From Pseudomonadota bacterium (GTDB lineage Bacteria > Campylobacterota > Campylobacteria > Campylobacterales > Sulfurospirillaceae): a DNA stretch of 64,000 nt. The stretch spans positions 1 to 64,000 of the forward strand of contig JAGDMU010000014.1 in the NCBI GenBank assembly GCA_017860615.1, read 5' to 3'. The translations under genes and the position numbers were made by a program. Shown piece after piece: positions 19,968 to 62,856 of this stretch. The notes under the pieces are model-generated. The model was not told the origin of the DNA. It saw only the letters and a list, made by a program, of their open reading frames with translations, and did not search any database. Numbering within the stretch: the stretch's first letter is position 1; every line of letters starts with the position of its first letter.

Positions 19968-20904
19968 AATGGGCGTTATGACAGGAACGTTATCACTTCA
20001 AAAAGAGCGCATTAAAACGGTGCGCTACTATGCTGAGTTGTTCATCGAATCGAAAAAACAGACAACGGCACGAAGTACGTATAGTCGCTATGCTTCTATT
20101 TTAGAAAATGGGATTTTATTTACTTTTGGAGATATTCCAATTCGTGAGATAAAAGTTTCTCATATTGATAAATGGAGAAGTGAACTTTTACAACGATTTA
20201 GTGCTAAAACGGTTAAAGAGTATCAAATTGTTTTTAGAGGTATTTTTCAAAAAGCACTTCACGATGAAGAAATTGGAAGAAATCCTTTTGATGCGTTGGA
20301 CTCTTTAAAAGTGAAAAAGCCAACCATTGTTCCTTTTATGCCACATGAGGTCAAACTCATTTTAGATACAGCGCACGGATGGTTTAAAAACTATCTTGCA
20401 CTTGGATTTATGACGGGTATGAGAGTCGGTGAGATTGTGGCTTTAAAATGGGAAAATGTCAATCTTGACACAAGAGAGATTTACGTTTGTGCCTCTAAAA
20501 CGAAAGGTGTTGAGGGAAGTACCAAAACACAAAGTAGTATTAGGTACATTCCTATCATTGATACATTAGTGCCTTTTATTGAGAATCAAAAAAAGCTTAG
20601 TGGTGACAAAGAGTATGTGTTTGTCAATCAATACGGAAGGGTTTTTTATGATTATAAAACAATAGGTGCTAGGCAATGGACGGATATTTTAAAAGCGTGT
20701 AATCTAGCTCATAGAAGAATGTATGAAATGCGCCATACGTGTGCAACCAATCTTCTTATGAGTGGAAAGTATAGTGTTAATGAGATTGCATCTGTTTTAG
20801 GACATACGACACCACAAATGTTGTTCGAGCGTTATACGAGAAATATATCAGCAGAGCGTAAACCGTTTAATAAAACAATAGATATTTATGCGGTAGATGC
20901 TTAA
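19831..20904 (+). CDS. Tyrosine recombinase (integrase) of the first island
   Basis: 357 residues from the ATG behind CTCAGGAG. It has the SAM-like core-binding domain and the catalytic domain: box I Arg in GFMTGMRVGEIVALKW, the R-H of YEMRHTCATNLL, then LGHTTPQMLFERYTR with the His and the nucleophile Tyr. The usual first His of the HxxR box is Tyr here (YEMR), a substitution also met in phage integrases. The gene points towards tRNA-Ser(GGA), 63 bases from the att site it must use. Confidence 0.93.
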   Translation: MSVFKKNNRVWIDLFANGARIRKSTGLEWTASNVKKVEKELIPQLRMGVMTGTLSLQKERIKTVRYYAELFIESKKQTTARSTYSRYASILENGILFTFGDIPIREIKVSHIDKWRSELLQRFSAKTVKEYQIVFRGIFQKALHDEEIGRNPFDALDSLKVKKPTIVPFMPHEVKLILDTAHGWFKNYLALGFMTGMRVGEIVALKWENVNLDTREIYVCASKTKGVEGSTKTQSSIRYIPIIDTLVPFIENQKKLSGDKEYVFVNQYGRVFYDYKTIGARQWTDILKACNLAHRRMYEMRHTCATNLLMSGKYSVNEIASVLGHTTPQMLFERYTRNISAERKPFNKTIDIYAVDA

Positions 20905-20967
20905 GTCACCATAGTGTCACTGGGAGATTTTTATATCTTTGAAAGTGCCTAAAATAGGGAATTTAGA

Positions 20968-20990
20968 TGGCGGGCAGAGGGGGATTCGAA
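20968..20990. repeat. Right attachment site, within tRNA-Ser(GGA)
   Basis: The 23 bases identical to 15732-15754. They encode the 3' acceptor and T-arm part of the tRNA, so integration rebuilt a complete tRNA at this end. Confidence 0.85.
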
Positions 20991-21055
20991 CCCCCGGTGA
21001 GTTGCCCCACGGCCGCGTTCCAGGCGACTGGATTAAACCACTCTCCCATCTGCCC
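20968..21055 (-). tRNA. tRNA-Ser(GGA)
   Basis: 88 bases with encoded CCA. The acceptor GGGCAGA pairs with TCTGCCC; the anticodon loop is CTGGAAC with anticodon GGA; a long variable arm marks a serine tRNA; the T loop reads GGTTCGAATCC. It reads UCC and UCU codons. It serves as the integration target of the first island. Confidence 0.95.
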
Positions 21056-36018: not shown

Positions 36019-36042
36019 GTGGCCGGGAGAGAGGGATTTGAA
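36019..36042. repeat. Left attachment site of the large element
   Basis: 24-bp copy (GTGGCCGGGAGAG then AGGGATTTGAA) of the 3' end of tRNA-Ser(TGA), 83 bases past the formate dehydrogenase-like stop. It is identical to 62768-62791 and diverges at once on both sides. Confidence 0.88.
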
Positions 36043-38815: not shown

Positions 38816-41005
38816 TTACATGAAAGGAATTTTGACCTCTTGTTTTATTCGAATTGGTTGTAATGTTTGATATTTTTGTCTGATAGAGTTATATAACTGA
38901 AAGCCTTTTTTAGCTTTAACAGTCACAACTAATACATAAGGTAGTTTTTCTGTTTCAGTATTTTTAATGGCTTTTCCTGCGTCACGAGCTTGATATACTA
39001 TATCGAAACAAGGCTGTTTTAGCGTATTAGCATGACATTTGCCTTCGTGATGGAGAGTAGTTTCCCACTTATGTGCATCTTTTCTAAAATCTGCTTCTGT
39101 TTCATACATTTCTTTTCTACTAAAAAATGCTTTACTTTTTCCTTCTGGGCTGCTATCTGGTCTAAATGTTATTACTAATCCATTATTTGTATAACTATCT
39201 GGATAAGAAGGATTTATTTTAGCAGTGAAGCAAAAGGTCGCTTTAATAGAGATCTTTCCATCTAGTTGTTCATCAGGAAATGGAATAGGAACTCTGATAT
39301 ATTGTGATGCATCAAGCTCCCCTTTGTATATGACACTTACTTCATTATGATCAGTATAAATGACTTGTTGAATATTATTAGGGAAAAGACCTCTTCCCAC
39401 TTCATCCTGAGATAAAGACTTTTTGGGTTTTATATTATGAATCATTAGTGCTTTAATTACTAATGGATCAATTTTTGTATCAAAAATACTAGCTATTCCT
39501 ATACAGTTTCGAAGAACTAATGGTGATGAAAAGCTTGTGCCAGCAGTTGAATGGACTTGTTTCGAAATAGGAGAATATATCAAGAAAGGATTAGTAGCAT
39601 GGCCACCAAATGCTAGGCCATCAGGTTTAATTAATCCTGGACTTCTTCCTGGTCCAATGCAACTATAATGAGTTCTTTCCCAAGTATCATCTTCATTTGT
39701 AGCTGCACCTATAGCTAAAGCATTTATCATATCTGATGGGGGCTGTATCCGATTTAATCCAGGTAGGTCACCATCATTTCCGACAGCAACAGTTAATAAC
39801 GTATTTTGTTTAGATAGATAATCATCCAACATGGATGTCCAAACGTGTACATCGTCATCTTCAATAGGAATTCTTGGTCCAAGGCTTAAATTTGCAAAAT
39901 GATAGCTTTTTGAGTTTAAAGCATCCAAAATTTTCTTTAGAACTGAGAATAAGTCAGGATCCGAAGGTGTATTATTATCTAATACTCTATAATGGTCTAT
40001 TTTAGAATAAGGAATTGGTAAAGTCGTTTGTTCTGCTTGAATATTCCCAAATAAAATAGTTGAAGTAACTTCTGATCCATGATTTAACAAATCTTGATTT
40101 GTTACTTCTCCACCAGGGTAGACTTTTTCATTACACCATTTTGATAGATGGGTGTTCCCTATACCACCATCAAATACAGCTACTTTGATATTTTGATCGA
40201 TAGCATCTTCAATAGGAAGACTCATTGAGGGCATTGTATGTATACTTCTTTGTATTAAGGGCTCAAATATTCTTAATTTTGGCATTTCTCTTAATACACG
40301 AAGATATGTAAAATTAGCTATTTCTTTTGCTTTGATACTATTTGTTGTCATAGGCAAAAAAGTTAATCCAGAGACTTGTAAGAGTTTAGAAAAATCTATA
40401 TCTGCTCCTATTTTTTTTGAAAATTCGGTGAATGATTCAAGAATCCCTGACTCGTTCTCTGGGGTATGTAAAATCACCTCAAATTGCTGTTCCTTATTTT
40501 GAGTGATATTCCCTTTTATTTTATCTTGAGGCTCAAAGAGTAAAAGATCTTCATTTTTAATAATTTCTTGCTGTAGATTTGCTTCAATATCATTAGATTG
40601 TAAAGCTTCTAATAAGTCATCAAATGCATCTTTGCTACCTGATATAAAAATATTAGAAGTCATTTCATAATCAGGAGCTTTCTTTAGTTGTGTTTTTCTT
40701 GGATGAATACGTAAAGATTTACTACCAATATCATTAAAACCAAATTCTTCAAATAACTTTGTAGGATAGTATGATTTTGCAATATATGCTGGATGCAAAA
40801 TAAAGTTTGCAACAATTTTATTATTGGGCATTGCTTCATGAGGCAGAGTATTAATTTTTTCTAAGAGTTGCTCTGTGCTAGTAATGAGATGTTGGCTTGC
40901 TTCTCGAAAAGAGTAAGGATGCTTTTTTTTATCTCCACCATTTTTATGCTTAATAGCATGTGTTAAAGTTTCTCCAAATCCAAGTAATATATTCCTGTCA
41001 TTCAT
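38816..41005 (-). CDS. Subtilisin-like (S8) serine protease of a two-gene AAA system
   Basis: 729 residues with no signal peptide, so cytoplasmic. The catalytic triad is complete: Asp in VAVFDGGI (about 277), His in LNHGSEVTST (about 307) and Ser in GTSFSSPLV (about 489), with the oxyanion Asn in AVGNDGDLPG. The first 240 residues may hold the enzyme inactive or bind substrate; the last 200 form a beta-rich extension. It follows the AAA+ gene by 12 bases. The pair resembles ATPase-gated proteolytic effectors found in defence islands, but its target is unknown. Confidence 0.87.
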   Translation of the reverse strand: MNDRNILLGFGETLTHAIKHKNGGDKKKHPYSFREASQHLITSTEQLLEKINTLPHEAMPNNKIVANFILHPAYIAKSYYPTKLFEEFGFNDIGSKSLRIHPRKTQLKKAPDYEMTSNIFISGSKDAFDDLLEALQSNDIEANLQQEIIKNEDLLLFEPQDKIKGNITQNKEQQFEVILHTPENESGILESFTEFSKKIGADIDFSKLLQVSGLTFLPMTTNSIKAKEIANFTYLRVLREMPKLRIFEPLIQRSIHTMPSMSLPIEDAIDQNIKVAVFDGGIGNTHLSKWCNEKVYPGGEVTNQDLLNHGSEVTSTILFGNIQAEQTTLPIPYSKIDHYRVLDNNTPSDPDLFSVLKKILDALNSKSYHFANLSLGPRIPIEDDDVHVWTSMLDDYLSKQNTLLTVAVGNDGDLPGLNRIQPPSDMINALAIGAATNEDDTWERTHYSCIGPGRSPGLIKPDGLAFGGHATNPFLIYSPISKQVHSTAGTSFSSPLVLRNCIGIASIFDTKIDPLVIKALMIHNIKPKKSLSQDEVGRGLFPNNIQQVIYTDHNEVSVIYKGELDASQYIRVPIPFPDEQLDGKISIKATFCFTAKINPSYPDSYTNNGLVITFRPDSSPEGKSKAFFSRKEMYETEADFRKDAHKWETTLHHEGKCHANTLKQPCFDIVYQARDAGKAIKNTETEKLPYVLVVTVKAKKGFQLYNSIRQKYQTLQPIRIKQEVKIPFM

Positions 41006-41017
41006 TGGTATGAATCC

Positions 41018-42100
41018 TTATTTTTTATTTTGTAAAGCCCTTACAATGGTGGAACGTGATACCTCTAGTTTATTTGCAATGTCTTGTTGTGTCAATCCAT
41101 GATTCGCTAAATACATAATCCATTCTTTTTTTGACTCTTTATTTAAAGAAAAATACTCTTTTAGTTCTAAATCAAACTGATCACATAAAGTTTCTATTAA
41201 AAGCTTGTTTTCTAAAACAGCATTTTTTTTAGCATGATTTAGTTTTTTTTCAATTTCTGAAAATGAGCATTCTTGTATCTTTTGAGCTAGCCAGTCTGAT
41301 AGCGAATGGTTAATATCATGTTGCTTGAAAAACTTACTCACTTGATTTATTTCTGGCAAATTAAAAAGAATCACTTTATCAAAACGTCTCCAAATTGCTC
41401 TATCTAGTAGCTCTGAATGATTGGTTGCTGCAAGAAGCAATGAAGTTGTTGGCCATTCGTCAATAGCTTGTAAGAGTACTGTAACTAGCCTTTTTAGCTC
41501 TCCTACATCTGAATCATCGTCTCTTTTTTTGGCTATGGCATCAAATTCATCAAAAAATAATATACAAGGAAAACTTTTTGCGTAATTTAGAACAGCTCGA
41601 ATATTGCTTCCTGTTTTGCCGAGATAGCTACTCATAACAGTTGCAAGATCTAAGGTTAATAGAGGTAATTTTAATTTTTCTGCTAAGTAATGTGCCATTA
41701 ATGTTTTTCCTACGCCAGGAGGGCCTGCCAGGAGCGCAGAGCGTGTAGGGATGAGTCCTTGCTTTAGAAGAGAGTCACTTTTTTCTCTTTCTATGCAAAT
41801 ACGGTTGATTTCATTTTCTATTTTTTCGTTCCAGATAGGCTCAACATGTAGAGCAACAGATTCTTCAACTAATAATAATTTTTGCCTTGTGTCTGCATCG
41901 ACTGGCATTGGAATATGATTATCTATGCTTCGTAACGTTTTTGTCTTTAACAGTGAGCTAAGTTCCTCCGCAAGTTGAGGATCGCACTTATTTAACTTAC
42001 CTGATAATTTACGTATCCTCATTTCAAAACTTTTCTGATTGCCATTTAGACCATCATTTAACAGTTCAATTAGTGATTCTTTTAAAATTTTTTCAATCAT
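41018..42100 (-). CDS. AAA+ ATPase with C-terminal HTH, partner of the subtilase
   Basis: 360 residues. Amino 110 residues helical; Walker A GPPGVGKTL near residue 123; Walker B ILFFDEFDAIAKK near 178; sensor I and arginine-finger region in LLAATNHSELLDRAIWRRFDKV. The family is the FtsH/katanin-like classic AAA clade. The carboxy end has a resolvase/Sigma70-type helix-turn-helix, LTQQDIANKLEVSRSTIVRAL. So it may both unfold or present substrates to the protease and sense or repress its own promoter, where a tandem repeat lies. Confidence 0.87.
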   Translation of the reverse strand: MIEKILKESLIELLNDGLNGNQKSFEMRIRKLSGKLNKCDPQLAEELSSLLKTKTLRSIDNHIPMPVDADTRQKLLLVEESVALHVEPIWNEKIENEINRICIEREKSDSLLKQGLIPTRSALLAGPPGVGKTLMAHYLAEKLKLPLLTLDLATVMSSYLGKTGSNIRAVLNYAKSFPCILFFDEFDAIAKKRDDDSDVGELKRLVTVLLQAIDEWPTTSLLLAATNHSELLDRAIWRRFDKVILFNLPEINQVSKFFKQHDINHSLSDWLAQKIQECSFSEIEKKLNHAKKNAVLENKLLIETLCDQFDLELKEYFSLNKESKKEWIMYLANHGLTQQDIANKLEVSRSTIVRALQNKK

Positions 42101-43642: not shown

Positions 43643-44428
43643 ATGAAGTGCATATTTTGTAAAGTAGATACAACACATGATAAATCAGTAGAACATATAT
43701 TGCCAGAATCACTTGGAAATACAGAACATTGGTTGCCTGCCGGTATCGTATGTGATAAATGTAATAATTATTTTGCGATAAAGATAGAAAAACCATTATT
43801 GGAATCATCATATTTTAAATTAAATAGAAGTTATCAAGAAATATATAATAAACGTGGTCGAATACCTTCTGTACCCGCAGTATTCTTATCAAAAAGTGAT
43901 AGTTTTGGAGCTCACTTATCTACGTATGGTGATTCGCTCTACTTTCAGGAAAATGAGGACATCGTAAAATTACAAAATCTGAGTAATAAAAATACAACTT
44001 TCAAATTGGTAATGCAGCTTCCTCCTAAATGCCCAGAACCGAATTCAATGGATAGATTGTTAGCTAAAGCAGCACTTGAGGCCTTAGCGTACAAAGCTAT
44101 AAACCACTCTTTGCCTCTTGATGAAATCGTGAATCACGATGCTCTTGATCCGCTCCGGAATTTTGCAAGATATGGAAATGGTAAAAAATGGACTTATCAT
44201 CAGCGAAGTCTTTATGATATCAACAAAGTATGGCAAGATCACGATGCAAATGAATTATATCAGTGTCTTCACGAGTTTGATTTTCTATATACAGAAGATC
44301 AAGAATTATATTTTGTACTCATTATTTTTGGAATTGAATATGCTATGAATATGGGCGATACAGATATTGAAGGATATATAACATGGTTAAAAGAGCATGA
44401 TAATAAGTCACCTCTTTATATAGAGTAA
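43643..44428 (+). CDS. HNH endonuclease-like protein
   Basis: 261 residues. The amino end has the treble-clef HNH layout: CIFCKVDTTHDKSVEHILPESLG (first CxxC and the E-H-I-L-P motif) followed by IVCDKCNNYFAIKIE (second CxxC and the N-N of the HNH core). The rest (200 residues) is not recognised and may recognise DNA or a modification. It starts a four-gene plus-strand run. Restriction of foreign DNA is the natural guess. Confidence 0.75.
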   Translation: MKCIFCKVDTTHDKSVEHILPESLGNTEHWLPAGIVCDKCNNYFAIKIEKPLLESSYFKLNRSYQEIYNKRGRIPSVPAVFLSKSDSFGAHLSTYGDSLYFQENEDIVKLQNLSNKNTTFKLVMQLPPKCPEPNSMDRLLAKAALEALAYKAINHSLPLDEIVNHDALDPLRNFARYGNGKKWTYHQRSLYDINKVWQDHDANELYQCLHEFDFLYTEDQELYFVLIIFGIEYAMNMGDTDIEGYITWLKEHDNKSPLYIE

Positions 44429-45624: not shown

Positions 45625-46311
45625 ATGAATTGCGAATATGAGCACATTGTAGAGCTAACAACACAATATTATTTTAGAACTCAATTCTTTAAAGAGCAAC
45701 TAAATGGCATACTAATTATGGGTTATAATCCAGGAGAATCTAACGACGATAGGATGAACATTACCACTGAACCGTTATCTAGTAGTTTTTTTTCAGATGG
45801 GAAAAATCTTAGTACATGGCCTTTTAATAGAAAAATAGAAAAGTTCTTTTCTTTATGGGGATTTCCACTGGAGACGCAAGCTGATAAAATATCGAAATTT
45901 GAAAAATCTATTTTTCAATCTAATTGGTGTCTAAAACAACTGGCTCATAACAGCGGTAAAGATTTGCAACTATGCCTAGAAAATAAAGATTTTTTTATAA
46001 AGCAAATTCAAATTTTCAAACCTAAAATTTTACTGCTTTTTGGTAAGCAAATGATTTATGCATTAAACAACTCTTCAGTTCTACCAGAAATTGAGCATAT
46101 CGTAGGTGCATCTAGACCATTTGAGATGCTAACTAAAAGAATAGAAAATTGTAAAAAGTTCAAAATATATTTTCAAGAATTTAGAGATATGAATGTTATA
46201 GTATTCCCGCACCCTACTGGTTCAATAGGAATACAAGATAAGTATATTGCGGCATTTGCCGAAGAAATTACCCCAATTTTTGAACAATTTGTGAATAGCA
46301 AAGCACAATGA
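45625..46311 (+). CDS. UDG-superfamily-like protein
   Basis: 228 residues. The pattern fits the uracil-DNA glycosylase fold: motif 1 GILIMGYNPGES (as in the G-x-N-P-G of Mug-type enzymes), the middle strand KPKILLLFGKQMIYAL (as in the LG-x-x-A strand of family 4/5), and motif 2 VIVFPHPTGSIG (as H-P-S/T). It may excise a base, perhaps a modified phage base, or have lost activity. The housekeeping ung is at 5623, so this is an extra member inside the element. The Fic gene overlaps its end by four bases. Confidence 0.6.
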   Translation: MNCEYEHIVELTTQYYFRTQFFKEQLNGILIMGYNPGESNDDRMNITTEPLSSSFFSDGKNLSTWPFNRKIEKFFSLWGFPLETQADKISKFEKSIFQSNWCLKQLAHNSGKDLQLCLENKDFFIKQIQIFKPKILLLFGKQMIYALNNSSVLPEIEHIVGASRPFEMLTKRIENCKKFKIYFQEFRDMNVIVFPHPTGSIGIQDKYIAAFAEEITPIFEQFVNSKAQ

Positions 46312-47153
46312 TATATCCATGTAAAGATGATTGCATCAAACTCCTCAATAAATACCAGGACAAATTAACACCAGATCAGTATCGAAATATAGAAGCTACG
46401 ATAGGCAATCATGCTTTCGAGGGGATGTTTGCAGATAAATATGATATTGATAGATTGGTACGTATGGCAAAAAATGATTTATCCTATGAAGAAGCACGTA
46501 TTGAGGCTATTGCAGAGATCAAAAGCATACGTGCGCAGATCCAGGATAAGAATACAGAACTACCACTCTTTGATCAAGAACTATTAGGCTCGAATAAAGT
46601 TGAGGCCATAAACTTAGAAGATTTATTTTTGAAAGAACAAAAGCTAACCCTTATTGCAGAATTATCGATAAGGAATAAGCCGGTTATGGGGATTTTCGAT
46701 TTTAACTACCTCCAGGCTATTCATAAACGCCTTTTTGATGATGTCTATACGTTTGCCGGAAAAGGTCGTTTTGAGATGGGATATCCTGGTGTATTTGTCA
46801 AAGGTGAGACACGCTTCACACCTGGGATCAAATTACCAGAAGTATCCAAAGCTCTTTTTGATGCGCTTCAAGATGATAAGTTTTTTGTGAATTTGGATCA
46901 TAAAGAATTTGCTCAAGAAATGGCGATCTTCTTTAATGGGTTAAACTTGCTGCATCCATTCCGTGAGGGAAATGGACGAACGCAGCGTTTATTCATGGAA
47001 AGTGTTGCTCAAAATGCCGGTTACGTTTTATCACTCCATCAAGTCTCTCAAGAGGCAATGATCAGAGCGTGTCAAAACGCTGATAAAGGGTTTATCAATA
47101 GCCTCGAGATACTTATGCGGCATCATCTTGAGCCGATAGAAAACAAGCGATAG
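46308..47153 (+). CDS. Fic protein with built-in VbhA-like antitoxin segment
   Basis: 281 residues. The Fic core has the full active loop HPFREGNGRTQRLF and the flap region VYTFAGKGRFEMG. The first 60 residues look like the VbhA antitoxin helix bundle: IGNHAFEGMF carries the inhibitory Glu-Gly (normally S/T-x3-E-G; here Asn takes the S/T place), followed by KNDLSYEEARIEAI. So this AMP-transferase should be held off by its own amino terminus. It is coupled to the UDG-like gene by ATGA. Confidence 0.82.
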   Translation: MIYPCKDDCIKLLNKYQDKLTPDQYRNIEATIGNHAFEGMFADKYDIDRLVRMAKNDLSYEEARIEAIAEIKSIRAQIQDKNTELPLFDQELLGSNKVEAINLEDLFLKEQKLTLIAELSIRNKPVMGIFDFNYLQAIHKRLFDDVYTFAGKGRFEMGYPGVFVKGETRFTPGIKLPEVSKALFDALQDDKFFVNLDHKEFAQEMAIFFNGLNLLHPFREGNGRTQRLFMESVAQNAGYVLSLHQVSQEAMIRACQNADKGFINSLEILMRHHLEPIENKR

Positions 47154-47379: not shown

Positions 47380-50268
47380 TTATTGTAATTTAAATTTGAC
47401 ATTAATAGATTTTTCTATAGTTTCAATACAAGATTTTTGAATTTTCCAAAATTCTTGTGATGCAATTGATTTAGAAGTATGATTCTCTTGCAAAATAGTA
47501 AATTGCTTTGTATTGTTATTAAGAAGAACTGGAGAGCTTTTAGCCCATGCCTCTTGCGCATATTTATAAAAATAATATGCAGACTCTTTCGTGTTTGATT
47601 CAATGAGAACTTGCCCAATCCAAAATGCAGCATAACCTAAATTAATAAGCCTATTTGTTATATCATTAGTAAAAATATAGTAAAACGACTTGTAATAGCA
47701 GATAAGGGCTTCATCTTTCATATTTTTTAAATATAAGCATTTACCAATATTACCATGTTGTGCGCCACCGCCATCTTTTAAAATTATATTTTTATCAATG
47801 ATCGTATCCAAAGTATTATTCAATAAAAACAATGTAAGTGCTTTATCTATATTTTCAATTGTCCCAGTATCTCTAAGTGCTAATGCTTGATTATGTTTAA
47901 TATCAAATTTATCTTCTTGTTCACCTCTATCAAGTAAATATATAATTTGTTCAGAGATATTTATTGCGTTGTCATATTCTTTCCTAAACCAAAAAAGGTA
48001 ACATTTTGTTGCACAAAGCCGAAAGTATGATTCTCCTTTACTCTCCAAGATTTCTTCATATTTGGCAATTAACTCATCAGCATAATCAGATTCTCCATAT
48101 TCAACAAAATATTTTATTGATGAATTTAAGAGTACATCAAATTGGAGGTAGGTTTCGATTTTTTTCTTAGACCAAGTAATAGAATTAAAAAAAAGTTTTA
48201 CTACTCGTAAATATTCTTCAATAAATCCTGCCGCTGTCATACTAGATGAAATTTCTAGTAGTGTATTGAGTGCACTTTGATAATCACCAGCATTAATTGA
48301 TAATTCAGTTTTATTAGTAAAATTTAAAAATTCATCAAAACTCGTTGTATAGTTTAATTTATTCTTCAAAATGACAATAAATTTATCATAATATTGTATG
48401 AAGAGTGTAATATATTTATTCCTTTCAGATGTTGGATAATTAGTTCTAATAAATTCTTTGACTAAAGGATGTAATTCAATATAAGTCGTGTCTCTTTTTT
48501 CAATAATTAAGTTTAGGTTATATAAAGACTTGAGAGCTTTTTGAAATTTGTTATAGTTTAACTCATTGCTCATAATATCAGCATAATCTTCTTTTGTTTC
48601 AGGAACAATAGCTTCTGCTAATGTTCGTAGCACAAGCCTTTCTCTATCTTGTAATAATTCCCATATTCGTCCAAGTAGCTTCTTAGCAAGAATTGAAGAA
48701 TCATCTCTCTCCAGATTATGACCAGTTTCTATTTTTAACAAAAAGTCTTTTAAAGAATCTTCTCCCTTTCTAGATTGTGCTAAAATCAAACTTAGCCATA
48801 AAGCATGACCATGTGTAAAATTATAGGCTTGAATTGCATATTTTGTTAACTTTTCTTTATTAATTGTTGTATTCCCTTGTAAAAAATACTGTATGGTGTC
48901 AGATTCACTCAAGCCTTCTAATTTTAATTGATGAAAATCGACGCCTGCATACCGAATAAATGGTCTACATGTGAAAATAAATTTTGATTTATGATCATAT
49001 TTTATGGCTGCATGAAAGAACTTACCAATACCACCAATAGGTTCGAAGTATTCCAAATCTATATAGCTATCAACATTGTCTAAAACAAAAATTGTCTTTT
49101 GAGTTCCTAAATATTTAAAAAATAACGCAATTAATTCTTCTTCACTAAATCCAACAATCTCAGATAAATTAATCGAGGGTTCAACTCTTTTTATCATTGA
49201 ATATATTTTTAGTATAAACTTGTGCTCTTCTTCTTTAAAATCTTTCCAATCGATAATTGAGTAATTATTTTCATTATTTATATAATGAGAAGCTAGTGCA
49301 GATTTGCCTTCACCACCTATACCAGTAATAAAAAAAACTTTAAATGCCTCAGATTGTAAGAGAGAAAGTTCTTTTTCTCGACCTATCCAATTAGATACAG
49401 ATGGGGCAATATCACTGCCGTCATCTTTATGTTGAAAATTCATTGATTCTCGACTAGATTCTGATAAGTTTTTAGAAGTATTAGTTATTGTGTTGGTATT
49501 GTCTAAAGCTATTACTTTTAGTTCATTCAAAAAAGAAGGAAGATGACTATAATTTTCTAATGTTATCTGGGTAAGATGGTTATTCTTTACATCGTGTGTA
49601 TTTACTAAAAAATGTTTTGGTCCATATCCATCCATTAGTGAATTTATATAGTTAAAAAGCTCTTCAACATAGGGATCTTTAAATGAAAAACCTATAAATA
49701 AAAAAGAATATTGAGAAAGCAATTTTTGAAATTGAAATTTTGCTAGATTATCATTACGATATAACATCTCATATTGCTCTTTAAAGATAATACAGTGATC
49801 TGGTTCTGTGATATCACCATGTATTTTTAAAATAAAACTATCAATATCATTAATTGTTGATAATTTAAAATTGCTAGACTGCGTCATTATGTTTGCAATT
49901 TCACAATTCTTCTCAAGTAATTGATCATAATTAGTAGTAATAAAACGTTTTGATATTTTAGTTATTGTTTGATGTATAAGTGATTCTGTATGGGTAATAT
50001 TGCAATCATTCTCAAAAGATTCTAGAATGAGCTTTTTTTCATGTTTCAAGTTATCTAAAATATCTAAAGGTGTCATAATTTCAGACTCTAAAGCATTTAG
50101 CCAAGCATCTGCTTTTTCAATATAGCCCTTTTTATTAATTAATAAATTTTTAACAATTGTATGCCAAGAAGGCAAACCATGATTAATTGATAATCCTGAT
50201 CCAACAAATATAATTAATTGGTTTTGTTTAATGGCATCATGTAGGGCTTGGGGAATAGTATATGACAT
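47380..50268 (-). CDS. SIR2-STAND defence protein, Avs5-like architecture
   Basis: 962 residues. The amino 250 residues are a SIR2-like NADase domain: LIIFVGSGLS at 18-27, RFITTNYDQLLE, ILKIHGDITEPD and FLFIGFSFKDPYVEEL. The middle is a STAND/NB-ARC ATPase with Walker A FFITGIGGEGKSALA, Walker B KTIFVLDNVD and the FIFTCRP strand. From about 600 on come TPR-like helical repeats that would sense a phage product. Binding should trigger NAD+ depletion and abortive infection, as known for SIR2-STAND (AVAST type V) proteins. A single gene with its own promoter region. Confidence 0.88.
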   Translation of the reverse strand: MSYTIPQALHDAIKQNQLIIFVGSGLSINHGLPSWHTIVKNLLINKKGYIEKADAWLNALESEIMTPLDILDNLKHEKKLILESFENDCNITHTESLIHQTITKISKRFITTNYDQLLEKNCEIANIMTQSSNFKLSTINDIDSFILKIHGDITEPDHCIIFKEQYEMLYRNDNLAKFQFQKLLSQYSFLFIGFSFKDPYVEELFNYINSLMDGYGPKHFLVNTHDVKNNHLTQITLENYSHLPSFLNELKVIALDNTNTITNTSKNLSESSRESMNFQHKDDGSDIAPSVSNWIGREKELSLLQSEAFKVFFITGIGGEGKSALASHYINNENNYSIIDWKDFKEEEHKFILKIYSMIKRVEPSINLSEIVGFSEEELIALFFKYLGTQKTIFVLDNVDSYIDLEYFEPIGGIGKFFHAAIKYDHKSKFIFTCRPFIRYAGVDFHQLKLEGLSESDTIQYFLQGNTTINKEKLTKYAIQAYNFTHGHALWLSLILAQSRKGEDSLKDFLLKIETGHNLERDDSSILAKKLLGRIWELLQDRERLVLRTLAEAIVPETKEDYADIMSNELNYNKFQKALKSLYNLNLIIEKRDTTYIELHPLVKEFIRTNYPTSERNKYITLFIQYYDKFIVILKNKLNYTTSFDEFLNFTNKTELSINAGDYQSALNTLLEISSSMTAAGFIEEYLRVVKLFFNSITWSKKKIETYLQFDVLLNSSIKYFVEYGESDYADELIAKYEEILESKGESYFRLCATKCYLFWFRKEYDNAINISEQIIYLLDRGEQEDKFDIKHNQALALRDTGTIENIDKALTLFLLNNTLDTIIDKNIILKDGGGAQHGNIGKCLYLKNMKDEALICYYKSFYYIFTNDITNRLINLGYAAFWIGQVLIESNTKESAYYFYKYAQEAWAKSSPVLLNNNTKQFTILQENHTSKSIASQEFWKIQKSCIETIEKSINVKFKLQ

Positions 50269-55835: not shown

Positions 55836-56237
55836 ATGAAACCAGAAACAGCAGAACAAATATATCAATTTTTTGAGGAAGCACAAATTGTCCTGGCGAC
55901 GCTAGAGGATCATATCGCGGCATTTAATCGTGCCTCGAAAGTCTTTGAAAAAACGACGAGCGATTTTGCAAAAGTCGAAAAGAGCATCGATGGGATTGGT
56001 ACGCTAGTCGCCGAGAAAATTCAAGTAAAAACTATTCAAGCCTATTTATTAGGCTCGGTGGCAGAGCTTGAAAGTGTCACGAAAGATCTAAAAAGGCGTA
56101 AGCATGAAGAACGTTCCACGTTGAAGATTGTTTTTGCTGCAACGTGCCTTTCCGCACTTGCAACAAGCATCATTTTTATAGCGTTTGAAGCGGCCAATAA
56201 ACCGCTTTTCAATCTTATTTATCAACTTGTTCATTAA
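55836..56237 (+). CDS. Coiled-coil protein with a C-terminal membrane anchor
   Basis: 133 residues. The first 95 are helical and charged with heptad patterns (FEEAQIVLATLEDHIAAFNR, VEKSIDGIGTLV); one membrane helix comes near the end (FAATCLSALATSIIFIAFEA). AAAGGAGAGAAAA precedes the ATG. The layout recalls small anchors in conjugation operons but no family is recognised. It stands ten bases before parA. Confidence 0.6.
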   Translation: MKPETAEQIYQFFEEAQIVLATLEDHIAAFNRASKVFEKTTSDFAKVEKSIDGIGTLVAEKIQVKTIQAYLLGSVAELESVTKDLKRRKHEERSTLKIVFAATCLSALATSIIFIAFEAANKPLFNLIYQLVH

Positions 56238-56247
56238 GGAGAACACC

Positions 56248-57027
56248 ATGAAAAATATCGCAATTATTAATACCAAAGGTGGCGTAGGAAAAAGCACCCT
56301 CGCCTTTCACGTTTTACCGGCTATTTTAGCGGATAGAAATTTTTCGATTCTAGAAATCGACAATAATAATACAACAACAACGGCGTTTTCAAATACACAA
56401 ATCTTGAAAGGAAAAATTACCTCGGTAAATATCGACGAAGGTATGCAAAAATTGGAAGAGCTTGTTATTAATAATATGTTGGATGGGGACAAGATCAGCG
56501 TGATTGATGCCGGTGGTGGTGATGACTCACTCAGAGTGATCCATTCGTTTATCGACCAAGATTTGATCGCAGACACGTTATTTCTCATCCCTTTTATGCC
56601 TGATTTCGTGCAGCTTAAAAATCTGGTTGATACGTATAACGTTTTACCAAGTGAGGCGAAAATCCTGGTGGTCTTAAACAATGCGGATATCAGTGATCCT
56701 GATCATCTTATGTTCGTTAAGGGTAACGAGGACTTTGAGATACCGGATATCTCATCTACGTTTAAACACTTTGCTGTTTGCCCTAAAAGCCCACTTTTTT
56801 CTTATGCCGCTTCACGCAATAAAGAGACGATCAAAGATCTTGCCCTACTCGCAACCCAATACAACCAAAAAGAGATCCTAGATTACGCGAAGATAAAAAC
56901 CAAAGGTGATAAAGACAAGATGACCAAGATTTACCGCAATTGGAAGATTTCACGCAATGCAAAAGCATACCTCGAGAGTGAAGCGATCGCGCAGCTCAAA
57001 AGCATCATTCTGGGAGAGCAAGCATGA
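56248..57027 (+). CDS. ParA/MinD-type ATPase
   Basis: 259 residues. The start is set at 56248 (GGAGAACACC before the ATG); the frame is open 63 bases further up but inside the previous gene. Deviant Walker A KGGVGKSTLA, Walker A' region SVIDAGGGDD, and switch strand LEIDNNNTT. ParA proteins move or position DNA by forming ATP-bound patches on the nucleoid or by pairing with a centromere-binding protein. The next gene, a small HTH protein overlapping by four bases, and the phased repeat array after it complete a partition-like set. Confidence 0.83.
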   Translation: MKNIAIINTKGGVGKSTLAFHVLPAILADRNFSILEIDNNNTTTTAFSNTQILKGKITSVNIDEGMQKLEELVINNMLDGDKISVIDAGGGDDSLRVIHSFIDQDLIADTLFLIPFMPDFVQLKNLVDTYNVLPSEAKILVVLNNADISDPDHLMFVKGNEDFEIPDISSTFKHFAVCPKSPLFSYAASRNKETIKDLALLATQYNQKEILDYAKIKTKGDKDKMTKIYRNWKISRNAKAYLESEAIAQLKSIILGEQA

Positions 57028-57296
57028 AGTACGAAGATTGGATTGCTAAGAACACGCCGTTAAAGCGTGTCTCTTCCCTAGAGCCATACAGAGACGAAAT
57101 TCAAAAGCTTGTGAGTTTGAATTACACGCATAATCAGATCGCTGATTATTTACAAGAAGTAAGAGGCCTTGAGATATCAAGGCAGCAAGTTCAGAAGTTT
57201 CTCTCGAAAAAAACAACCAAAGAAAAAGCGGTGCAAGCTGAAAAAGGTGAAATACCGAAAGTGAGTTTAGAGGATAAGTTCAAAGGATACCTCTAG
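57024..57296 (+). CDS. Small HTH protein, candidate centromere-binding partner of ParA
   Basis: 90 residues, basic. YTHNQIADYLQEVRGLEISRQQVQKFLSKK is a helix-turn-helix of the phage-terminase/KfrA-like type; both flanks are charged. It overlaps the parA stop (ATGA) and ends 17 bases before the heptamer array, the usual place for a centromere-binding protein or relaxosome accessory protein to act. Binding to the array is inference. Confidence 0.7.
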   Translation: MKYEDWIAKNTPLKRVSSLEPYRDEIQKLVSLNYTHNQIADYLQEVRGLEISRQQVQKFLSKKTTKEKAVQAEKGEIPKVSLEDKFKGYL

Positions 57297-57313: not shown

Positions 57314-57424
57314 TGCAACCTCGTGCCACCGTAATGCTACCGAAAGCAATCGTATGCAACCACTTGCTACTCAATGCTATCAAAAAGCTACCGTGTGCCA
57401 CCAAAGAGCCACTCAAAGGCAACC
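57314..57424. repeat. Helically phased array of eleven heptamers
   Basis: Copies begin at 57314, 57324, 57335, 57345, 57355, 57365, 57375, 57386, 57396, 57407 and 57418. The first ten fit WGCNAYY (for example TGCAACC, TGCCACC, TGCTACC, AGCTACC); the last is GGCAACC. Steps are 10 or 11 bases, mean 10.4, the helical repeat of B-DNA, so every copy faces the same side. Spacers are not conserved. Reads as a multi-site protein platform such as parC/stbDR centromeres. Confidence 0.9.
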
Positions 57425-57435
57425 GAGAAAACATT

Positions 57436-57461
57436 CACACCCAACGCCACGTTAATGGCAC
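57436..57461 (-). other. Candidate origin of transfer with F-like nick region
   Basis: On the minus strand a hairpin (GCCA-TTAACG-TGGC, 57459 to 57446, extendable by two G-T pairs) is followed by GTTGGGTGT and then GAATG. The F plasmid nick region reads GTGGGGTGT^GGTGC after its hairpin. Spacing from hairpin to the presumed nick (between 57437 and 57436) is 9 bases. The MobF relaxase gene starts 56 bases away. Nicking here would send the parA side first and the relaxase gene last. Confidence 0.6.
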
Positions 57462-57492
57462 GAGGTGAAAAAAAGACGAAAAAGAGGCAAAA

Positions 57493-60348
57493 ATGCTTTC
57501 AATTGCAAATATGAATAGCGCACAAGCAGCTCATTATCATGCGAAAGATCAAAACTATTATCAGCAAGATAAAGAGACAAGCGTTTGGGCTGGCAAAGGT
57601 GCTGAACGTTTAGGCTTGAGTGGTGAGACTGATATTAAACAGTTTGAGCGATTGTGTTACGGTATTCACCCAAGCGAAGAACGCACTCTTGTTGATATTA
57701 GTGAAAGAGCGGGCACGGATCTAACCTTTTCCGCTCCAAAATCCGCATCGATCTTATGTGAATTAGGTGATGAACGTACCAATCAACTCATACGTGCAGC
57801 ACATGATCAAGCGGTGCAAACCACACTGGCATTTGTTGAAGATCATTATGCTCAAACAAGAGAACAAAAGGACGGGCATAGAGAAGCAATTTCTACTGGT
57901 AATCTCATCATCGCTAAATTTCAGCACGATAGCAGTAGAGAGAACGATCCGTCATTGCATACGCATTGCTTTATCGTCAATGCAACGCAAAAAGAGAGCG
58001 GAGAATGGCGAGCGTTACACAATGATCAGCTCTTTACTCACAAGATGTTTCTAGGCCAGACGTATCGCAATGAATTGGCCAAAAATCTTAGAGAGCAAGG
58101 ATTCACGATTGAGGTAACAAATGCCAAAGAGGGATTCTTTGAAATTAAAGGCGTTTCCAAAGAGTTGCTCCGTGAATTTTCACAACGTCGTGAGCAAGTC
58201 CTCGAGAAATACGAGGAGTTAAAAAAGCAATATCCTGGTCTCGAGGAAGAGAAGCTCAAGGAAATGGCTACAACCGGTAGCCGAAGCGTCAAAGATAAAA
58301 ATGCTGATCGCAGTGTCATCAAATCTAACAATATCGAAAGAGCCAAAAACATTCTATCCGGTAAAGATTTAACTTATCTCAATCAGCTGAATAGTTCGCC
58401 GCTACATCCAGAACAGCAAAAATTAACGGCTAAAGATGCGGTAGATCTTTCGATTCGTATTCAAAGCGAAAAGACGAGTGTGTTTAATCGTGAAGATGTG
58501 ATGAAAAACGCAATGAAGCTTTCGCTAGGTGAGCATTCACTTAATGCTATGCAGAGTGCTTTTGATGATCATGTCAATGAGCGATCGATTGTGCAACTGG
58601 ATCAAAATGCTTACTCTACACCGGAGCTCTTACAAAAGGAGTTTGAGATTGTTGAAATGGCAAAAAACCGCACAGATCCTTTAATCTCTGCACAACACGT
58701 GGAGGAGTATCTAAGCCATACGCCTTATAGCCTCACAAAAGGACAACAAGAAGCGTATACACACATTCTCACAAGCAATGAGTCTATTTCAGTGATCCAG
58801 GGCGATGCCGGCACGGGTAAAACGTTTATGCTTAAAGCCGTGAGAGAAACGCTCGAGAGTCAAAAGCAAAGTAGCATTATAAGAGGGCTCGCTTTTACCG
58901 GGAGAGCCAGTGAAGAACTTGAGCGTGAAAGCGGTATCCCCTCTACGACATTGCACGCTTTTTTTGTCAATCCACCGGCAGAAAAGAATATGGTTTATAT
59001 CGTAGATGAGGCTTCAATGGTCAGTTCGTTACAGATGCACCACTTATGTGAGATTGCTAAAGAAAACCATTCAAAAATTGTGTTTATCGGTGATCAAAAG
59101 CAATTCCAATCTCTAGGCGCTGGCAATATGTTCTCGCAGCTTCAAAAGCAAAGTGATATCCGTATCGTTGAGATGACAGAAAATAAACGTGCACAAACAG
59201 AATTGATGCGATCGCTGTATTCATCCATCAAGAGCAAGGATTTAGAAGAGGCGTTTGGCATTTTAGAAAAGCATCAACGACTTCATGAAACAACGGATCT
59301 CGAGAAGATAAAAAACGAATATCTCAAAGATCGTCATGATACGTTGCTTCTTGTGGATACGAACGCAAATCGTAGAGCTTTAAACGAGTTAATCCGAGCG
59401 GATCTCGTCGCCCAAAAGGAAGTCACACAGTCTCAACCATTATCTATCAAAGAGGCAATCAATCTAAACGAGATTGAAAAACACTACTCGAGTAATTATC
59501 AAGTAGGTCAAATTGTTGTCGCGCAAAACGCGTTTCAAGGATTTAGTGCTGGGCAAGAAGGGATGATCACCGCGATTGATCATCCATCCAATACGATCAC
59601 TGTTACCAAAGATGAGCAACGGATCAACATTGATCTAAGTAAAGCTCACGCTCAAGCAATACAAACCTTTGCTATCAAAGAAAAAGCATTTGGTGTCGGA
59701 GACAAGATCGTTTTTACAAAAAACAATCGAAATCTTAAGTTTAGAAATGGCGAGGTTGCTGTGATCCAAGCGATTTATGGGAATATCATCAAAGTGCAAA
59801 AGGGAAATAAAGAGTTAGCGTTTGATGCTTCCAAGTATCCCTATATCGATCATGGATACGTCATTACAGCACATAAAAGCCAGGGGCAAACGACCAGTAG
59901 GGTTATCGCTTTCACGAATGCACAAATGGCCAATTTAAACCGCTTCTACGTGCAAATTACCAGGGCAAAACGTGATGCCTTAATCTATACCAACAGCATA
60001 GCAACACTCAAGGAGAATACACAAAAAACGCAAATTAAAACCAGTACCCTAGATTATTTTAGGTCGGCAATGCAGCATGAGGCACATACAAATCACAATT
60101 ACAAAAGGACATTCAATGAGCAAAAAGAACGAAGAATATCAAGAGGATCAACTCTTTCAATACTGGGAGACTATTGCACAAAGCTCAAAATTGCATTCGC
60201 AGATCTTAGCCGACATTTTGGCGTATTTAAAAGAGCTCGACGAGAGATTGAAAGCACTCGAGGCAAAGATCAAATGAAAAATATCTTACTTAAAAATGAG
60301 CGCGAAAAAGCAGCTCAATCCATAACACAATCACGAGAAAGGAGATAG
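57493..60348 (+). CDS. MobF (TrwC/TraI-type) relaxase-helicase
   Basis: 951 residues. The amino end matches TrwC: MLSIANMNSAQAAHYHAK with the catalytic Tyr candidates at 15, 22 and 23, then WAGKGAERLGLSGE. The HUH metal site is SLHTHCFIVN. The helicase part has Walker A GDAGTGKTFM, Walker B VYIVDEASM, ITAHKSQGQT and VQITRAKRDALIYT (RecD2-like SF1). It nicks oriT, stays bound to the 5' end and unwinds the strand for transfer. AAAAGAGGCAAAA precedes the ATG. The tail overlaps a small ORF. Confidence 0.93.
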   Translation: MLSIANMNSAQAAHYHAKDQNYYQQDKETSVWAGKGAERLGLSGETDIKQFERLCYGIHPSEERTLVDISERAGTDLTFSAPKSASILCELGDERTNQLIRAAHDQAVQTTLAFVEDHYAQTREQKDGHREAISTGNLIIAKFQHDSSRENDPSLHTHCFIVNATQKESGEWRALHNDQLFTHKMFLGQTYRNELAKNLREQGFTIEVTNAKEGFFEIKGVSKELLREFSQRREQVLEKYEELKKQYPGLEEEKLKEMATTGSRSVKDKNADRSVIKSNNIERAKNILSGKDLTYLNQLNSSPLHPEQQKLTAKDAVDLSIRIQSEKTSVFNREDVMKNAMKLSLGEHSLNAMQSAFDDHVNERSIVQLDQNAYSTPELLQKEFEIVEMAKNRTDPLISAQHVEEYLSHTPYSLTKGQQEAYTHILTSNESISVIQGDAGTGKTFMLKAVRETLESQKQSSIIRGLAFTGRASEELERESGIPSTTLHAFFVNPPAEKNMVYIVDEASMVSSLQMHHLCEIAKENHSKIVFIGDQKQFQSLGAGNMFSQLQKQSDIRIVEMTENKRAQTELMRSLYSSIKSKDLEEAFGILEKHQRLHETTDLEKIKNEYLKDRHDTLLLVDTNANRRALNELIRADLVAQKEVTQSQPLSIKEAINLNEIEKHYSSNYQVGQIVVAQNAFQGFSAGQEGMITAIDHPSNTITVTKDEQRINIDLSKAHAQAIQTFAIKEKAFGVGDKIVFTKNNRNLKFRNGEVAVIQAIYGNIIKVQKGNKELAFDASKYPYIDHGYVITAHKSQGQTTSRVIAFTNAQMANLNRFYVQITRAKRDALIYTNSIATLKENTQKTQIKTSTLDYFRSAMQHEAHTNHNYKRTFNEQKERRISRGSTLSILGDYCTKLKIAFADLSRHFGVFKRARREIESTRGKDQMKNILLKNEREKAAQSITQSRERR
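60116..60277 (+). CDS. Possible small coiled-coil protein overlapping the relaxase tail
   Basis: 53 residues in a frame different from the relaxase, starting at an ATG with AAAAGGA eight bases upstream. The sequence is amphipathic with clean heptads (ILADILAYLKELDERLKALE), more protein-like than a chance shadow. The relaxase frame across the same bases is also open and charged. Either both are made or the relaxase tail is poorly constrained. No homologue known to me. Confidence 0.35.
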   Translation: MSKKNEEYQEDQLFQYWETIAQSSKLHSQILADILAYLKELDERLKALEAKIK

Positions 60349-60350
60349 TA

Positions 60351-61922
60351 ATGTCAACGATTTTATTATGTTTATTGTTTAATGCCGGTGCTTTATGGGT
60401 GTTTCAAAAGAACCTTCCAATACCAGGCGGCGCAGTCTTTGTGCTACTTTGTATTATGGAGTATCTTGCATGGGCATTTATTTTCAAAAGACAAGAATCG
60501 ATCAATGGTCGTATCTTTGATGATAAAGCGTGGGTGATGGGAAGTTATCCCAATTACTATGAGCAAACGGAAGGCAATCGATGGACGGCTTCAAAGCGTG
60601 TCAAAGAAATTATGTCTAAAGGAGAATTGTTCCTGGATCAGTTTCGGTTTGATCGTAGCGTTTTATATCGTTTGTCGCCAGTCTATGGATTGGCTAGTAA
60701 ATTTAATGATTTTGACTGTTATGCGGATCCAGTAGATTTTACGCAGTCAGGAATTATATTTGGTGGTATGGGATCAGGTAAAACAGAATTTTATCACTCC
60801 CTTATCGCACAAGATAAGTTCGATCGTGTAGTCGCGTATGATACCAAAGGCGATCTTGTGCAAAAGCATTATAGTGTGTTGAAAGATATTATCTTAAATC
60901 CGTATGATCAACGAAGCCATATTTGGAATCCTTTCGAGGAGGCTAAGACGAGTCCTTTTGTGACAGAAATTTTCTTAACCAATCTTTTCAATGCGTTAAG
61001 TGGCACACAAAAAGACTTTTTTAGCGCAAGTTCCAAACAACGATATATGAAGCTTTTTAACGATATTCTTTATAACAACAGTGAGCTTTCATCGAATGAG
61101 CAGTTTGATCTTTTTATTCAACAGCTCAAGGAGTATTTCAAAGAAAATCAAGATCATGAAAGACGTAGTGAAGCGGATGTCGCCAGTACAATGCATTTGA
61201 CGTTTGAATTTTTTGACTATATGAATTTTTGTATTCAAAACGGTAGCCCTACTTTTACGATTAAAGAGTATCTCTCTCGTAAGAGCTGCAAGCTCTTCTT
61301 ACTCTCGAGGGATGATCAACGCTCAAAACTTACCCCGTTTTTTACCGGCTTTTTGGCTGCCATGACGGCCGTCATGTTAAGCCAAGAAGATCAAAAAACC
61401 TCTCTCACTCTCTTTGCTCTTGATGAGTACCTCTCTTTTGCTCAAAACCTCGATAGTGAAACGATCGAGGGGTTACATACCAGGATCAGAAGTAAAGGCG
61501 GTTGTTTGCTTCCAGGTGTGCAATATTTCCCAGAGCAAAGTAACAAGGCAGACAGTGCTCAAGGTATTACGCAAAAAATGTTAAACTCAGCAGCTTATTG
61601 GTTTTTATTTCAAGGTGTGGATGAATATACACTCAAAAAGATCAATAGTACGATTGGTAAAGTACGTTATAGAAAAGAGCAGATTAGAGAGCAACTTGTT
61701 GCGGATCCGTTGAATCGTAAAAATTACCAAATTGAAGAATCGGATCTGCTAAATACCAGTTTGTTTCAATCATTAGGTCAAAATTACGAGCATATTACGT
61801 TTGTACCGTCGAAACAAATTTTGTATAAAGGGTATACGCCAAGAGCGGAATTACCGATTAGAAAAGAAAATTATCTTCAAAGTGAGAATATCGAAAAATA
61901 CTATCGGGAGGTACGGGTATAG
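60351..61922 (+). CDS. VirD4/TraD-type conjugative coupling protein
   Basis: 523 residues. Two amino membrane helices (ILLCLLFNAGALWVF; AVFVLLCIMEYLAWAFIF), Walker A IIFGGMGSGKTEFYH near residue 140, DTKGDLVQKHY after it, and Walker B LTLFALDEYLSF near 360 with GGCLLPGVQYF following. A hexameric ATPase that passes the relaxosome to the mating pore. The gene starts two bases after the relaxase stop. With relaxase but no pore ATPase, it fits a mobilizable element. Confidence 0.88.
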   Translation: MSTILLCLLFNAGALWVFQKNLPIPGGAVFVLLCIMEYLAWAFIFKRQESINGRIFDDKAWVMGSYPNYYEQTEGNRWTASKRVKEIMSKGELFLDQFRFDRSVLYRLSPVYGLASKFNDFDCYADPVDFTQSGIIFGGMGSGKTEFYHSLIAQDKFDRVVAYDTKGDLVQKHYSVLKDIILNPYDQRSHIWNPFEEAKTSPFVTEIFLTNLFNALSGTQKDFFSASSKQRYMKLFNDILYNNSELSSNEQFDLFIQQLKEYFKENQDHERRSEADVASTMHLTFEFFDYMNFCIQNGSPTFTIKEYLSRKSCKLFLLSRDDQRSKLTPFFTGFLAAMTAVMLSQEDQKTSLTLFALDEYLSFAQNLDSETIEGLHTRIRSKGGCLLPGVQYFPEQSNKADSAQGITQKMLNSAAYWFLFQGVDEYTLKKINSTIGKVRYRKEQIREQLVADPLNRKNYQIEESDLLNTSLFQSLGQNYEHITFVPSKQILYKGYTPRAELPIRKENYLQSENIEKYYREVRV

Positions 61923-61951: not shown

Positions 61952-62236
61952 TTAAACAAGAGCAATCGTTAGTTTTTTGCCTAGAGCTTGGCTAGCTGAA
62001 ATTAATGTTGTAAGCGTTAATGATTCGTTTGAGGGGCTTAATAATCGATCAACCGCAGCCCTACTTGTGTGCATCATTTGTGCCAGTTTTGTTTTAGAAA
62101 TTTTTTGAACTTTCATTTCTTGTTCTAATTGATAAGCAATGACTCTTTTAATAGCGGCATCATTAACTTCTTCATAGATACCTTCGTCTCTCAAAAATTC
62201 ATCAAAATCACTTCTCATATTTGGTTGTAGTTTCAT
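61952..62236 (-). CDS. higA: HigA-type XRE antitoxin
   Basis: 94 residues. Helix-turn-helix KISKTKLAQMMHTSRAAVDRLL with the family tail TLISASQALGKKLTIAL. It overlaps the toxin gene by four bases and follows it, the toxin-first order of HigBA modules. It should bind HigB and repress the promoter at about 62570-62600. Confidence 0.87.
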   Translation of the reverse strand: MKLQPNMRSDFDEFLRDEGIYEEVNDAAIKRVIAYQLEQEMKVQKISKTKLAQMMHTSRAAVDRLLSPSNESLTLTTLISASQALGKKLTIALV

Positions 62237-62568
62237 TTTATATCCTTTAATCTACTTAAAGCTAAATCAAGATCGCTTTTTTCTGTCTTTTGCGTTTTTT
62301 TAATAAACGCATGCAGCAGTACCATGTATTCGTCGATAACAGCGAATATAACTCTTGCAATTCTTTTGTCTGATATATTGCTTCTCACTTCAAAAAGCTT
62401 TTTACCGAGACCCTTACATGTAGGCATACCTATTGGCCATCCATACTCTACCGTTTTAATATCCTCGCCAATGATTTTTCGATCATCTTTGGCAAGAGAT
62501 AATAGCCACTCTCTCACGGGTTTGTTTCCGTTACTTGTTTCATAAAATATCGAAGTGATTTTTTTCAT
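62233..62568 (-). CDS. higB: HigB/Gp49-like toxin, RelE superfamily
   Basis: 111 residues. Shows FYETSNGNKPVREWLLSL, the Gp49 signature, then GKKLFEVRSNISDKRIARVIFAV and MVLLHAFIKKTQKT with the basic residues that cut mRNA on the ribosome. Last gene before the right att site, it would help keep the element. Confidence 0.88.
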   Translation of the reverse strand: MKKITSIFYETSNGNKPVREWLLSLAKDDRKIIGEDIKTVEYGWPIGMPTCKGLGKKLFEVRSNISDKRIARVIFAVIDEYMVLLHAFIKKTQKTEKSDLDLALSRLKDIK

Positions 62569-62767: not shown

Positions 62768-62791
62768 GTGGCCGGGAGAGAGGGATTTGAA
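62768..62791. repeat. Right attachment site, within tRNA-Ser(TGA)
   Basis: 24 bases identical to 36019-36042, covering the 3' end of the tRNA including the encoded CCA; integration rebuilt the tRNA here. Confidence 0.88.
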
Positions 62792-62856
62792 CCCCCGGAG
62801 GTATTACCCTCAACGGTTTTCAAGACCGCCGCATTAAGCCGCTCTGCCATCTCCCG
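62769..62856 (-). tRNA. tRNA-Ser(TGA)
   Basis: 88 bases with encoded CCA. Acceptor CGGGAGA pairs with TCTCCCG; anticodon loop TCTTGAAAA carries TGA; long variable arm; T loop GGTTCAAATCC. Reads UCA, UCG and probably UCU. Integration target of the large element. Confidence 0.95.

Follow-up and report, generated by a model that had tools for sequence, protein, structure and literature searches.

Background

The chemistry by which MobF relaxases nick oriT is known from the plasmids F and R388. At the nick, the record of plasmid F (NC_002483) reads GCAAAAACTTGTTTTTGC, then the nonamer GTGGGGTGT^GGTGC, in which ^ marks the cut. Accessory proteins have their sites on the transfer-gene side in both plasmids: IHF, TraY and TraM in F, a placement consistent with the gene positions in the F record, and TrwA in R388. 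PMC12117103 describes IHF, TraY and TraM sites at the oriT of F.

For R388, PMC3098194 describes 9-bp repeats with two-base spacers, and states that StbA is required for stability, that it restrains transfer and that StbB promotes transfer. The same text lists TraK of RP4, which binds between nic and traK, as a relative of StbA, and gives a classical KGG motif for TraL, the StbB-like protein of RP4.

We analysed a candidate oriT on the minus strand of a stretch of 64,000 nucleotides, called the window in the following. In our reading, to which we assign a probability of roughly 0.88, an integrative mobilizable element has its oriT here, which is cut by a MobF relaxase and accompanied on its leading side by a module of repeat array, HTH protein and ParA-like ATPase. 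For a MobF element, an F-type nick is to be expected and adds a member to a known kind. What is new is the combination of such a nick with a helical array on the leading side and StbA/StbB-like partners, where the relaxase side in the window leaves no room for accessory sites. A literature search, which had most subscription papers outside its reach, yielded no description of an F-type nick together with a helical array and a StbA/StbB-like pair. No MobF oriT in this phylum, the Campylobacterota, was found in that search.

An integrated element with its own relaxase

The candidate site lies in a 26.8-kb element (36.0-62.8 kb) that is bounded by att repeats and encodes an integrase, a relaxase and a coupling protein of its own:

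36019..36042, left end of the element, 24-bp direct repeat GTGGCCGGGAGAGAGGGATTTGAA
37709..38809, plus strand, tyrosine recombinase of the element
57493..60348, plus strand, MobF relaxase-helicase of 951 aa with Tyr15, Tyr22, Tyr23, His145 and H156-T-H158
60351..61922, plus strand, type IV coupling protein of the TrwB/TraD family
62768..62791, right end of the element, the same 24-bp repeat GTGGCCGGGAGAGAGGGATTTGAA, in the 3' end of tRNA-Ser(tga) at 62769-62856

A preliminary description of this DNA had named the relaxase encoded 56 bases from the site as MobF, and profile searches bear this out. The protein exceeds the cut-offs of PF08751 (289 bits, cut-off 25), of the NCBIfam MobF model NF041492 (264, cut-off 100) and of relax_trwC, TIGR02686 (234.5, cut-off 145.5), and its N-terminal Y15, Y22 and Y23 as well as H145...H156-T-H158 align with TrwC. 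Because VirB4/TrbE (PF03135) and F-type TraC (PF11130) gave no match in the whole genome, the integrated element is probably mobilizable, borrowing a mating apparatus.

Among its other genes are defence-like ones, an IetA/IetS pair (41018-42100 and 38816-41005), and genes for a SIR2-NB-ARC protein (47380-50268), a Fic protein (46308-47153) and an HNH protein (43643-44428). At the right end (61952-62568) there is a pair of Gp49-like toxin and HTH antitoxin; similar-looking ORFs occur near the relaxase in L042, one of the related loci treated below. Elsewhere in the window, 18196-21055 holds a second tyrosine recombinase (19717-20904) beside tRNA-Ser(gga) (20968-21055) and a 468-aa ORF, and is perhaps another small integrated element.

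The candidate nick site

Between the proposed nick and the relaxase ATG (57493) there are 56 bp. The site itself consists of three adjoining parts:

57446..57459, minus strand, putative relaxase-recognition hairpin GCCA-TTAACG-TGGC (GCCATTAACG at 57459-57450, TGGC at 57449-57446), which an inner or outer G.T pair may lengthen by one
57437..57445, minus strand, nonamer GTTGGGTGT, F counterpart GTGGGGTGT, with the proposed nick behind its last base, between 57437 and 57436
57432..57436, minus strand, GAATG, the first bases after the nick, whose 5' end is predicted to carry the relaxase

From 57459 downward the minus strand thus reads GCCATTAACGTGGC, GTTGGGTGT, GAATG, which is the order of short hairpin, nine bases and GAATG reported previously. 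The resemblance to the nick site of plasmid F that had been pointed out at the same time holds as well. The two nonamers are equal at 8/9 bases with one mismatch, each is flush with its hairpin, and in DNA folding both window and F form a hairpin with exactly 9 unpaired bases behind it. Of the post-nick bases, GAATG and GGTGC have the first alone in common.

By themselves, hairpin and nonamer of the window are unremarkable. The hairpin is weak (4 Watson-Crick pairs and one G.T, -3.2 kcal/mol, z -0.6), 53 of 200 shuffles fold as well, and the whole 64 kb window contains one other, chance-like match to a hairpin with GTNNGGT[GC][CT] at about 34669. It is the comparison among loci that lifts the site above chance, and on such sequence grounds 57437/57436 is very likely the nick site of an oriT.

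Near copies

The window was aligned with five near copies whose relaxases are 94-95% identical (n = 6 sequences), including one from Sulfurospirillum diekertiae JPD-1 and one from a Sulfurospirillaceae MAG. From the hairpin to GAATGTTTTCTC, 35/35 columns are invariant, as against 73/115 in the array, and two of the copies have a different array with an 11-bp insertion. The preliminary description had named loss of the GGGTGT core in close homologues as an observation that should count against the site; the core is kept in 6/6 near copies while the array diverges. In remote relatives this exact core gives way to a shorter constant one, GGT followed by G, C or A and then by T or C, with GGT in 21/21 listed sites.

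Recurrence of the nick design in remote relatives

Relaxase searches across genomes of the phylum, covering several families, supplied 38 loci oriented to the relaxase, of which 35 are distinct; relaxases of the remote relatives are 31-50% identical. A strict rule asked for a perfect stem of at least 4, a loop of 2-9, a gap of 0-1 and GTNNGGT[GC][CT] in the 1500 bp upstream of the relaxase. It was run on 34 loci, L077 being left out because its upstream DNA was too short. The rule was refined on the same loci in which it was counted, and with this proviso it matched 14/34 loci on the strand opposite the relaxase and 0/34 on the relaxase strand, compared with a mean of 0.35 and a maximum of 4 loci in shuffled sets.

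Adding 7 sites picked by eye (L034, L036, L043, L044, L045, L076 and L087) to the 14 strict ones gives 21 distinct sites, or 24 with three near copies. GGT stands at -5 to -3 in 21/21; position -2 is G in 17, C in 3 and A in 1, position -1 is T in 13 and C in 8, and positions -9 and -8 are GT in 17. The exact nonamer of F occurs in 4/21 sites (L036, L037, L074 and L083), and two sites carry GTATGGTCT, which is one base off the GTATTGTCT of R388 if the R388 stem is taken as GCACCGAAAGGTGC. Stems vary with their complementarity kept, as in GGAACGAAGTTCC versus GGAGGTGCAACCTCC, both beside GTCAGGTGT^AAACTCTT. The sites of L031, L075 and L088 are near-identical (CCACCTCATAGGTGG-GTT[TC]GGTGC) across three taxonomic families and have differing HTH proteins, a likeness that suggests either transfer of a nick/relaxase unit or strong constraint.

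No site was found in 14/35 distinct loci. Four of these 14 (L039, L073, L082 and L085) have the ATPase described below, and there the HTH/ParA-like genes are present and hairpin plus GTNNGGTSY was not found.

The gap between stem and nonamer is 0 or 1 base in the relatives, and in the CATTGGTGC form the stem extends into the nonamer. With spacing this variable, the oriT could be correctly placed and the nick still lie 1-2 bases away from 57437/57436. We consider such a shift unlikely, as the window has the exact spacing of F in addition to 8/9 nonamer bases.

Outgroup plasmids were also inspected, 8 being examined among 40 matches listed, of at least 5000 matching records. A plausible hairpin with GTNN[GT]GT[GC][CT] is present in 4/8, namely in Denitratisoma (GTGGTGTGT), Acidovorax (GTGGTGTGT), Alcaligenes (GTATGGTGT) and Nostoc (GTAGTGTGC); the remaining 4/8 gave no convincing site of this form. 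The HTH and ParA-like profiles matched none of the 8 plasmids, and a scan of IMG/VR for relatives returned none.

Ten loci from later searches were then tested under the frozen rule. In its strict form it gave one doubtful match among the ten (L114, with a 4-bp stem and no array). Relaxed to at most 2 G.T pairs, a setting chosen after the new loci had been seen, it matched 3/9 testable new loci, with 0 on the other strand and 0.095 in shuffles. L112 and L113, sites of another family, have GTTAGGTGT^GAATG behind stems that differ yet stay complementary. At L110, the sole new locus with both HTH and ParA-like genes, the site GTTGGTCT was found by eye, and the array past it is clear (z 4.6 at lag 10, 3.3 at lag 11). 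L112 and L113 are without the HTH/ParA pair and reach z 2.3 at lag 10 and nothing at lag 11. Since the nick occurs at these two loci in the absence of both the pair and a clear array, the modules are separable. Carried over to new loci, the nonamer performs better than the strict hairpin rule.

A helical array on the leading side

Past the proposed nick lies a series of short repeats:

57315..57424, minus strand, array of 11 units [AG][AG]T[AGT]GC, probably the platform to which the small HTH protein binds
Unit starts: 57424, 57413, 57402, 57392, 57381, 57371, 57361, 57351, 57341, 57330, 57320

The spacing is 10 or 11 bases with a mean of 10.4, and the first unit begins about 12 past the nick. 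Averaged over the sites, the 110 bases that follow the nick have a z of 2.6 at lag 10 and 2.8 at lag 11, other lags giving -1.0 to -0.2; harmonics of the array appear at 20-22, 30-32 and 41. A z of 2 was passed at lag 10 or 11 in 18/21 sites, and in 11/14 among the strict ones. Nothing comparable to this periodicity was seen on the lagging side, which was testable in 11/24 sites.

The repeat word varies by element (e.g. TGTCAA, ATACGAAA or TTCTCAATATG). Array similarity tracks HTH-protein similarity after relaxase similarity is removed (partial Mantel r 0.47, p 2e-4, 19 loci), and nonamer similarity tracks the relaxase (0.47); as the loci are related, the Mantel p values are indicative only.

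Two smaller features were noticed in this region. GAGT begins at +11 or +12 past the nick in 9/21 sites (L028-L031, L033, L035, L075, L076 and L088) and within +40 at three other places only; it may mark the first array unit, with a phase fixed relative to the nick. In the window, an 11-bp perfect inverted repeat (ACCTCGTGCCA / TGGCACGAGGT, 57318-57328 and 57456-57466) connects the outer flank of the hairpin with the far end of the array.

In the window the array is directly upstream of the relaxase gene and the hairpin is weak, which would also fit a transcriptional operator or leader of the relaxase operon beside which the F-like nonamer is incidental. We regard this as very unlikely. In 8/21 sites (L028, L036, L037, L043-L045, L086 and L087) hairpin and nonamer are 327-956 bp from the relaxase with the array alongside, and at L028, L036, L037 and L043-L045 ORFs intervene. 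An operator also does not account for the strand bias of 14 to 0, nor for a nonamer that stays unchanged in 6 near copies whose arrays drift. That the array accompanies the nick even where the nick is far from the relaxase speaks for a role at oriT rather than at the relaxase promoter, and we reject a relaxase operator as its sole function.

Proposed partner proteins of the array

Three plus-strand genes follow on the leading side of the array:

57024..57296, plus strand, 90-aa HTH protein in StbA-like position (Pfam Clr5, 22.2 bits, cut-off 22.3)
56248..57027, plus strand, ParA/StbB-like ATPase with the classical KGGVGKST motif
55836..56237, plus strand, protein of 133 aa, apparently helical and with a membrane stretch at the C terminus, resembling StbC in position only

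Members of the HTH family have about 84-126 aa and lie on the leading side in 19/21 sites, and the ParA-like ATPase gene does so in 20/21 distinct sites. L040 alone lacks both genes, and L034 stops at a contig edge. The 133-aa protein has no Pfam match, and its family is present in 5/38 loci, 4 of which are Sulfurospirillum copies.

The ATPase scores 31.8 bits (E 9e-8) with the StbB family NF041292, whose cut-off is 200, and its family profile scores 49.6 bits with StbB of R388. For the HTH protein, the family profile gives 15 bits with StbA of R388, next to an unrelated TrwC match at 12; the hhalign probability is 29%, and a low-confidence model superposes on 7PC1 with Z 5.0 and an rmsd of 6.2. 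StbA was absent among the matches listed in a profile search of PDB sequences with the HTH family, and a solved-structure search from a single HTH protein returned nothing useful. At these values the profile match to R388 StbA is only suggestive, and the HTH protein is not established as a StbA homologue.

That the array is a partition centromere (parS) of an excised or plasmid form, with the true oriT elsewhere in the element, draws on the adjacent genes for ParA-like and DNA-binding proteins, on the fact that partition systems typically have arrays to which a partner protein binds, and on the need for R388 StbA in stability given in PMC3098194, but it is highly improbable, as parS alone leaves unexplained the constant hairpin and GTNNGGTSY beside the array and the match to the F and R388 nicks, and as the nick persists in L040, L112 and L113, where the HTH/ParA pair is missing.

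Comparison with F, R388 and RP4

Read as an oriT, the site is like that of F (TraI, MOBF12) in having a hairpin flush with a nonamer (GTNGGGTGT), a MobF relaxase and a nick strand opposite the transfer genes. Unlike F, the window has just 56 bp on the transfer-gene side and its array on the leading side, where by eye F has no such array, and the post-nick bases differ. The likeness to F put forward in the preliminary description is retained for the nick; the leading-side array with its StbA/StbB-like pair resembles R388 and RP4 instead.

With the oriT, stbDRs and stbABC of R388 (TrwC, MOBF11) the window shares leading-side repeats, which have an 11-bp period in R388 (lag-11 z 6.8), accompanied by a small DNA-binding protein and a ParA-like ATPase. 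The differences are that the repeats begin about 120 bp past the nick in R388 and about 12 in the window, that the window genes point toward oriT and not away from it, that the ATPase motif is KGGVGKST and not SGNVGKST, that the nick core is F-type, and that the relaxase side is without room for TrwA-like sites. By analogy, the module resembles the stbDR-StbA-StbB arrangement of R388 placed beside an F-type nick. The leading TraK/TraL module of RP4 is likened here by its published description, and the RP4 relaxase is MOBP, not MobF.

Proposed mechanism and implications

From the chemistry of F and R388 we infer that the MobF relaxase, once bound to the hairpin of the minus strand, would cleave at 57437/57436, directly behind GTTGGGTGT, and remain attached to the 5' end of GAATG. 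Strand and position of the nick would then give the direction of transfer that had been proposed earlier: array, HTH gene and parA-like gene would lead, and the relaxase gene would enter last. With eleven repeats at a mean distance of about 10.4 bp, the 90-aa HTH protein could cover a single face of the helix. By analogy with R388, this protein may coat the array and the ATPase may position or release it for transfer, so that both would form a module with accessory and positioning functions by which the relaxosome is aided or gated, much as by StbA and StbB at R388.

A broader proposal is more tentative, and we hold it at somewhat less than even odds. In MobF elements of the Campylobacterota, the accessory platform would be wholly on the leading side, and the F-type nick, coupled to an array with one unit per helix turn that an element-specific HTH protein reads and a ParA-like ATPase drives, would unite the start of transfer with positioning in the cell. 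The array word would serve as an identity code that drifts with the HTH protein, the nick would drift with the relaxase, and GTATGGTCT and GTGGGGTCT, nick cores that stand between those of F and R388, would imply a single continuous MobF code, GTNN[GT]GT[GC][TC].

What the analysis offers for this phylum is a candidate oriT, complete with strand and direction, in a family of integrated elements, together with some twenty natural combinations of an array and its HTH protein on which recognition can be tested. Sites intermediate between the nick cores of F and R388 are now available. Finally, the transfer route of the element bears on how anti-phage defence genes move.
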